A model generated the notes under the pieces. That model was not told where the DNA came from. It did no database searches and saw only the letters and a list, made by a program, of their open reading frames with translations. From the NCBI GenBank assembly GCA_019009955.1, contig CM032228.1, forward strand, positions 222,925,501-222,989,500: a stretch of DNA of 64,000 nt, read 5' to 3'. The position numbers were made by a program, and so were the translations under genes. This document shows, in pieces, positions 50,305 to 53,300 of the stretch (position 1 is its first letter; each line of letters begins with the position of its first letter). This DNA is from Riptortus pedestris (lineage: Eukaryota; Arthropoda; Insecta; Hemiptera; Alydidae).

Positions 50305-53300
50305 ATGTTATATGTTTTGATACGGGCCTCATTTTCGTCATCTCCTAGGTAGGATCGCTGGGCATTGAAGAAAAATTTCGAAAATTGCATCATGAGTACG
50401 ACCTCAATAGCTGATTTCCCTTAGGGGAAATCTGCTAAAAGGACTTGTATATTATCTGTTAAATAATTGGCTTAAGCTTCACAAATTTTGTTGAAGAAGA
50501 AATATTAAGTATAAAAAGTTAATTTTTAAAATAATTCATAGTATGCATTTGATTATCAAAGTTAATTACGGGTTCTTCTAAAATTCAACTTAAGTTGTTA
50601 AATACTCAAATAATGAATTGGAGAGCACTTGATTTTTAAAGATTCATAGTATGGATAAATTATTAAAAAGAATAAAATTTATTTGATTGTCATGCTAATA
50701 ACAAGTGTAATCACTTATAGCACCTCTAAAACAGTAAGTTATGTATAATTAGAAATTTAAACTTATTACTTCTTGTGTTATAATAACATCAACCACTGGA
50801 AGCGTCAACATGAAATCTAGCTTATACATTCTTACAAGGTATTCATCATAAAATATATTTTTTGCATCAAAATTCAGCATTTTAAGAAATAACTTTTTGG
50901 AAACACAGATACATTTTATGATTGGATTGGTAAAATCAAGAAACATCAAAACCAATCCCTCAAAATTCTGAAAAGAAGAGCATTTTGAGCTTCTGAGTGC
51001 AAATATTCTTTTGAGATGTACAATCAGCATAATTTTGTACAACATTTATTTTATTTTTTATTATAACCGACAGTACTACATATAATAAATTGACAAGCTT
51101 CATAAGGTAACAAGGAAAGGATGTAGTGTAAATGATAAGTTTTTGGACAAATGAAAAACCCAACGTAAATTAATATGGCATACAATTACCCTCTAATATC
51201 TCCCTTTCTTTACAATTAGAAGCTGATATGATTATTATTATTTATTTACGTCCACTTTTTGTTATAATGTTATTATATATTTTAAAGGAAAAATATAAAA
51301 TTTAAATAGAGCCATTCATTTTGTTAGAAATAAATACTTTATTTTTATACCAATTATAACAATGGAATGCTACTAGAAGAAAATACCCACCAACTGAATT
51401 TTTTTAAAACTCGATTAACTCTTATTAAAAAAAAATTTATTATTTATGGTTAATAGAGCATAAATCTATATATGCTGAGGAATGATTTGGATTAGAGTAA
51501 GCCATTTACAAGATGATTGGAATATAAAAGCTTAAGTGTAAATTAATTATAATGAAAATAACAGTTCGTAAAAGTATATACAAGGAGAAAAATAAAATGT
51601 ATGAATTAAGAATTTCCCAGACTAGTAAGCTTTTTGTTTTACAGAGCTAAAACAATAACATTAATTCAACTGTCTTGTAAAGTATAGCTTTTTTTCAATT
51701 GAAATATCCAAAATAAGTATTATTAGATCTTAGCATCAATTAGAAAATATAAATTCTAGAAATGCATTAAAAGCAATAACAAAAAAGCTTCTAGTGAAAA
51801 TATTGTAAGGATTTAAATGAAATAAATATCAACTTCTTAAAGATGAAAAAAAAAAACTACACTACCATTGCATAATTATACACAACTGGACAAACATTTA
51901 CAACTTGCATTGAAAATTCAATAAATTCTGTGCTCAAACCGATTCAATGAAATGATTACACAATTTTAAATTTACTTTTAAGTTATTTAAATCAAATAAA
52001 TTCAGTAATTTTTAATCAGAATAACATACTAAATTCTAAAATGGCCTCACTTGTGTTAGAATATTAAACAAAAAAATGAAGTATTTAAAATAAATTAAAG
52101 CAAAACTAAAATCATGCTGGTTTATATACATGTAACAGGTAAAAAACAAGTCTAATGTCAGGAAATTATTTTATGGATGATCAAAAGCTTTTAATATAGT
52201 GACATCACGACAAATAATGATGTTATACTATTAAAAATCAGTAACACTCATTAGGCTCAAAAACTGATGGAACATATATTAAGAAGTTTCAGGGAAATGG
52301 GCTTTAAGTTGAAATAGTCCATTCTATGCAACTATTGTAGAGTTAAACATTTGAAAAGATGTCGTACAGTTTACATTAGTGTAAATGACTTTCTTTGCTT
52401 CACCTTGAACTTTCTTTGAAGATACAGCAGACCCAGTTCATTACAGCTATACATCAAGCATTACTTTTGAATAGAAAACTAAAACAATAAGCAACTGCTC
52501 CTAACGTGATAACAATTGATATGAATAATTGAAGTTCAGATCAAATAAATTATCATGTTTTGGTTGACTTTAAAAAAGTTACATGTACCTCTTAATTACA
52601 TTTTAAAAGATTCATAAGCTATATTCTAAATTCAACACATTTAACTTGTACTTGGCATTCAAACAATGAAGTGCAATATTTAAAACAAATTAAGGCTAAG
52701 ATCAAAATCATGCAGATTTCAATATAACAAGTAATAACTAAGGTGAAAAACAAGTCTCACCTCAGGAAATTCTTTAATAGATGATCCAAAGCTTTTAATA
52801 TGACAATACCATCGCCACAAATGAGGACATTTCGCTCTATCAATAGAGCCCTCATTAATACTGTTAAAAATCTGAGAATCACTTTGACTAGGCTCAAAAC
52901 CAGTAATGTAACTTCTATTCATTAGGTAACTGTCCAGTGAAAAATTATCATTAAATGAAACAATACAACTTTTTGCACTCCCTGAACTATCATTTCTTTT
53001 AATTTTCTGCAAAATATTAAGTAATGTAGTATAAAATAGTAGCCATTGACAAAAAAAAAAGTTTCTCAATACATACCTTAAATTTTTCTCCTATTTCTTT
53101 ACTGCATAAGTTCTTCAGTTTGTTTAGATGATCAGCTTTGAACCTCACTGTTAAAATTAACAAATGAAAGAAAAACCTTTGATAGAAAAAGAATAATCAA
53201 TGTGAATATTGACTCACTTTGCCTCCATTTTACATCATTGTCTAATACAATATCCACAAGTTTTACATCCTTAAAGCGGTCTTTTTGATTTTTTCTAATG

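Follow-up and report, generated by a model that had tools for sequence, protein, structure and literature searches.

The window analysed here, a 64,000-nt, AT-rich stretch of the Riptortus pedestris genome, contains the gene for cytosolic seryl-tRNA synthetase (SerRS), the third exon of which almost certainly encodes a GST-C module of the EF1-beta type within the enzyme. The pieces of the gene were located by tblastn with human SerRS and the splice borders were set by eye. Joined, the 12 exons give a single open frame, 572 residues long when exon 3 is included and 490 when it is not, with GT...AG at 11 of 11 introns. The 572-residue protein exceeds the Pfam cut-offs for Seryl_tRNA_N (54.2 bits, cut-off 28.2) and for the class II core (155.6 bits, cut-off 29.3), and matches human cytoplasmic SerRS with an E-value of 2.4e-202, the alignment falling into two parts on either side of the insert (query 1-89 and 155-567). 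In the R. pedestris genome (1.08 Gb searched), the gene in the window is the one cytosolic SerRS gene; a second SerRS gene on C5 is read as mitochondrial, and a further weak match lies on C2 (E 0.02, 22% identity). In a tree of the SerRS core calculated without the insert, the protein is placed among the true bugs, beside P0003 (SH-aLRT 99).

Exon 3 contains no stop and is bordered by ttgcag on its 5' side and gtgaga on its 3' side. With a length of 246 nt and phase 0-0, its inclusion (GEKFK-KIKRND...KEFPE-RKESGDG) and its skipping (GEKFK-RKESGDG) are both frame-neutral. Coordinates, borders and frame agree with an earlier description from the DNA letters (the sequence-only reading) of an open 82-codon exon with good splice sites, 70 bp behind exon 2, as does the canonical join that it had predicted upon skipping. 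The window abounds in stop-to-stop frames of 70-120 codons, so the open length of the exon is by itself no evidence, and the case for a real coding module rests on homology. The best sequence match of exon 3 is the N-terminal domain of EF1-beta (5dqs_D, E 1.1e-7), followed by AIMP3 at 0.019, and a profile built from the inserts of nine relatives, with the window left out, recovers exon 3 at E 1.5e-20 as the only match at E 10 among all six-frame segments of at least 20 residues. The predicted structure is a helical GST-C fold lacking the thioredoxin-like half, with helices at exon residues 21-29, 41-48, 61-72 and 74-79, and comparison against the PDB puts EF1-beta ahead by nearly 3 Z units, with a weaker similarity to AIMP3. 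Indeed, the module resembles specifically the EF1-beta N-terminal domain, which bears out the GST-C-like, EF1B-type domain of the sequence-only reading. The profile check suggested there for the 82 residues gave no match to Pfam GST_C: exon 3 alone gave only a sub-threshold Arc1p_N_like hit (E 0.0059, 17.4 bits, cut-off 27), the insert within the spliced 572-residue protein had no match at E 0.1, and among the nine relatives' inserts only that of Ranatra passed the cut-off (31.6 bits). In the alignment on which the domain model is based (A1), six exon residues, the first five and the last, are set apart from the insert; Ser32, Tyr33, Pro39, Asp43, Arg65, Trp66, His69 and Ser72 of the exon are invariant in 10 of 10 aligned inserts.

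The module interrupts the tRNA-binding arm, as had been proposed earlier and as the structure model agrees, and is predicted to be tethered by flexible linkers to the tip of this coiled-coil arm, which SerRS uses to read tRNA; the linkers flanking it are modelled with low confidence. A foreign domain is likewise carried by SerRS in a laboratory fusion with the dynein microtubule-binding domain (3err), which presumably also makes use of the arm tip, but that fusion is engineered rather than natural. The insertion point lies just ahead of the eukaryotic insertion I (human G75-N97), which communicates with the active site (PMC10817482). Like the module, insertion I resides in the loop between the arm helices; unlike the insect insert, it comprises about 20 residues, is constitutive and forms no folded GST-C module (PMC10817482).

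Coordinates in the window of the reconstructed SerRS gene and of neighbouring features
Feature	Position	Strand	Remark
SerRS exon 1	53218..53353	-	start codon at 53353
SerRS exon 2	53077..53147	-	ends ...GEKFK; part of first long helix of tRNA-binding arm
Intron exon 2/exon 3	53007..53076	-	exactly 70 bp
SerRS exon 3	52761..53006	-	EF1-beta-type GST-C module; 246 nt, 82 codons, phase 0-0
Intron exon 3/exon 4	35013..52760	-	17.7 kb
SerRS exon 4	34776..35012	-	begins RKESGDG; second half of tRNA-binding arm
SerRS exon 5	32948..33088	-	reconstructed gene
SerRS exon 6	31043..31198	-	reconstructed gene
SerRS exon 7	30866..30972	-	reconstructed gene
SerRS exon 8	28421..28511	-	reconstructed gene
SerRS exon 9	24981..25170	-	reconstructed gene
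SerRS exon 10	22791..22888	-	reconstructed gene
SerRS exon 11	19623..19752	-	reconstructed gene
SerRS exon 12	18879..18994	-	carries stop codon
LINE-like element	38502..41332	+	within intron exon 3/exon 4
Zinc-knuckle open frame	54177..54656	-	upstream of SerRS
MTPAP-like exon	59356..59607	+	palm domain, 4.9e-14

The long intron behind exon 3 houses an element resembling a long interspersed nuclear element (LINE), antisense to the gene. It matches endonuclease, reverse transcriptase and zf-RVT, each in a frame of its own, and the endonuclease and zf-RVT matches score under the Pfam cut-off. Upstream of SerRS lies a CNBP-like open frame in which CCHC zinc knuckles recur. The window also holds an exon of a gene resembling mitochondrial poly(A) polymerase, and more exons of that gene may lie downstream.

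Relatives were sought with SerRS residues 1-230, and the 120 matches listed of 391 were aligned. Nine of the 120 carry a block of 73-95 residues of the module kind directly after EKMK (or a variant of it), so that the insertion of about 82 residues expected in related species was found. Among these matches, the carriers are the hemipterans Lygus, Ranatra, Clastoptera and Laodelphax, the cockroaches Diploptera and Blattella, the orthopterans Anabrus and Schistocerca, and the mayfly Cloeon. The inserts have diverged strongly, with 41 of 45 pairs at 25-37%. The remaining 111 matches have no such block, including those from the hemipterans Rhodnius, Cimex, Rhynocoris, Diaphorina, Cyamophila, Macrosteles (isoform X2), Daktulosphaira and Bemisia; it is also absent in all 26 named holometabolans among the 120 (P0051 has a gap there), an absence that is read from annotations and is no proof of loss. 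Several models depart in other ways: the Diaphorina protein P0009 has a duplicated N-terminus and no module, Blattella P0008 is missing a portion of its catalytic core, which probably reflects a faulty gene model, and the 31 residues inserted at the module site in P0048 (carp) are unrelated to the module and look like a read-through intron. A protein search with the window insert alone scored none of its 11 candidates, and one with a cockroach insert returned only itself among 35, which left non-insect relatives, CysRS variants and other ThrRS fusions out of reach.

That exon 3 is used optionally as a cassette exon in R. pedestris is likely, judging from these relatives. Two proteins of the spittlebug Clastoptera agree at every position in stretches of 69 and 396 residues; a 91-residue block sets them apart, and their C-terminal ends differ as well. 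In the mayflies, isoform names point the same way, with the block present in X1 of Cloeon and absent from X2 of Neocloeon, two models that share both flanks. Forms with and without the domain in relatives support the optional character that the sequence-only reading had proposed. In addition, P0003 reads EKMK-RKESGDGSS at the position where the skipped junction of the window reads EKFK-RKESGDGSS, and the 1,545-base contig encoding P0003 may be a transcript.

EF1-beta-type modules are also encountered elsewhere in the R. pedestris genome. The only threonyl-tRNA synthetase (ThrRS) gene found there (L032 4810-7164; C1:123795809-123798163, + strand) is one open frame of 785 codons, in which an N-terminal EF1-beta-type GST-C module (5dqs_D, 1.4e-8) precedes the TGS, a second additional, the catalytic and the anticodon-binding domains. 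This module is most like the SerRS insert of the window (40%). A cysteinyl-tRNA synthetase (CysRS) gene, taken as cytosolic, consists of a 735-codon open frame that is intronless over that length (L037 1241-3445, - strand, on C4); no module was found in this frame, and the module searches of the genome gave no match there. The intronless CysRS and ThrRS genes may have arisen as retrocopies and taken the place of the original genes. The match to the EF1-beta gene itself (L034 6232-6579, - strand, on C4) begins at human residue 27, immediately ahead of YVPSQAD, and an intron appears to lie inside its GST-C module, unlike the one-exon module of SerRS and ThrRS, which makes simple shuffling of the present-day EF1-beta exon unlikely; the first exon of this gene was not found by a pattern search in the 40 kb covered.

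The mayfly and bug lineages meet at the base of the winged insects, and one old acquisition is thus the simplest reading, the module in SerRS probably being as old as the winged insects. The sequence-only reading had credited the acquisition to this lineage alone, which the same-site module in mayfly, cockroach, orthopteran and hemipteran SerRS contradicts. A tree of 14 module sequences, with several long branches and a bootstrap that had not settled, contains a single fork with support over 80, uniting the window with Lygus (86/85). A branch supported at 60/93 separates the ten SerRS inserts from the other sequences, another weak split (43/89) groups the two cockroach inserts with EF1-beta, and the analysis neither establishes nor rejects a grouping of the SerRS and ThrRS modules of R. 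pedestris (p-AU 0.437). A tree of such short modules cannot establish a single origin.

The Diploptera proteins P0004 and P0070, of which only one carries the module, are 86% alike and lie on contigs of differing size, and they therefore look like the products of two genes rather than of a pure splice switch; a duplication may have left each splice form with a gene of its own. In its match to EF1-beta (3.5e-18), which starts at the first residues of that protein, the cockroach insert comes so near that its EF1-beta origin is hardly in doubt, and this closeness would also fit separate origins.

What the module might bind is suggested by analogy. The N-terminal domain of EF1-beta has been crystallised with the GST-like domain of EF1-gamma (5DQS; PMC7160314, PMC10452860), and EF1-gamma is encoded in the R. 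pedestris genome (two exon matches). By contrast with EF1-beta, where the GST-C domain forms the N-terminus of the exchange factor, the SerRS module is an internal exon with no exchange domain after it. A splice variant of human CARS1 contains an inserted GST-type EF1-associating sequence (Kim et al. 2000, as cited in PMC9166799) and is said to inhibit EEF1G (PMC9166799). It shares with SerRS the synthetase context, the optional splice insertion, the GST type and the link to EF1-gamma, the last of these predicted in SerRS, but concerns a synthetase of another kind and class, with the insertion on the N-terminal side instead of at the arm tip. Vertebrate ValRS joins EF1B/EF1H via a GST-like domain, an arrangement perhaps confined to deuterostomes (PMC4394549); this appending of a synthetase to EF1B resembles that proposed for SerRS, whereas the ValRS domain is N-terminal with a full GST fold and the insect module is a half-GST and likely optional. 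On the strength of these likenesses we lean towards docking of the included form on EF1B-gamma, where the module would bind the GST-like domain as the EF1-beta domain does. SerRS docked in this manner would sit beside the exchange factor that recharges eEF1A, such that Ser-tRNA could be handed over locally, and the skipped form would be ordinary free SerRS.

A different partner, the multi-synthetase complex with its GST network of AIMP2, AIMP3, EPRS and MetRS, appears unlikely, since EF1-beta is the better sequence match by five orders of magnitude for exon 3 and by about 17 orders for the cockroach insert, and the fold comparison, with its margin of nearly 3 Z units, agrees. Moreover, the fly complex comprises the same nine synthetases as the mammalian complex (PMC4394549), and the list of the latter, in the accessible part of PMC10817482, is without SerRS. 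It is more doubtful still that the module acts within the enzyme, altering tRNA-Ser binding at the arm tip or providing SerRS with a non-translational role. Such a regulator would suit a position just ahead of insertion I, given the communication of the latter with the active site (PMC10817482), as well as the fast divergence of the insert sequences, but the module is akin to a known docking domain, retains the EF1-type core residues (eight invariant in ten sequences) and is flanked in the model by low-confidence linkers, all of which points to protein docking.

Among the matches listed, Rhodnius, Cimex, Rhynocoris and P0003 are seen only without the block, as might be expected if exon 3 were a relic seldom if ever included in transcripts of R. 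pedestris; 82 stop-free codons, intact splice borders and the invariant core residues that it has kept render this quite improbable. The 17.7-kb intron that follows, with its retroelement, could in principle accommodate another gene to which exon 3 belongs, but this idea has next to nothing to recommend it when such a block lies inside the SerRS protein of nine relatives and both phase and strand fit SerRS. Taken as a whole, the explanation that SerRS bears an EF1-beta-type cassette module, likely included or skipped, with the included form docking on EF1B, seems to us reasonably probable.

An optional EF1-type module in a synthetase is of a known kind; the enzyme, SerRS, and the place of insertion are new. 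Among the papers listed in literature searches largely without subscription papers, none, judging by its entry, describes SerRS or ThrRS with such a module. A broader picture is offered tentatively: an ancient splice switch of winged insects may plug SerRS into EF1B via the arm tip, with ThrRS of R. pedestris wired in by the same module, so that two class II synthetases, perhaps replacing the ValRS link of vertebrates, would pass charged tRNAs straight to the elongation factor, in one case on demand. Whether synthetases channel charged tRNA to the elongation factor is a long-standing question, hard to test because of the weak contacts, and a natural on/off exon adding a predicted EF1B-type docking module would allow a clean comparison with and without it in a living insect. 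The arrangement also suggests that the SerRS arm tip is a natural carrier for a folded domain, and that links between synthetases and EF1 may have been rebuilt using different enzymes across animal groups.
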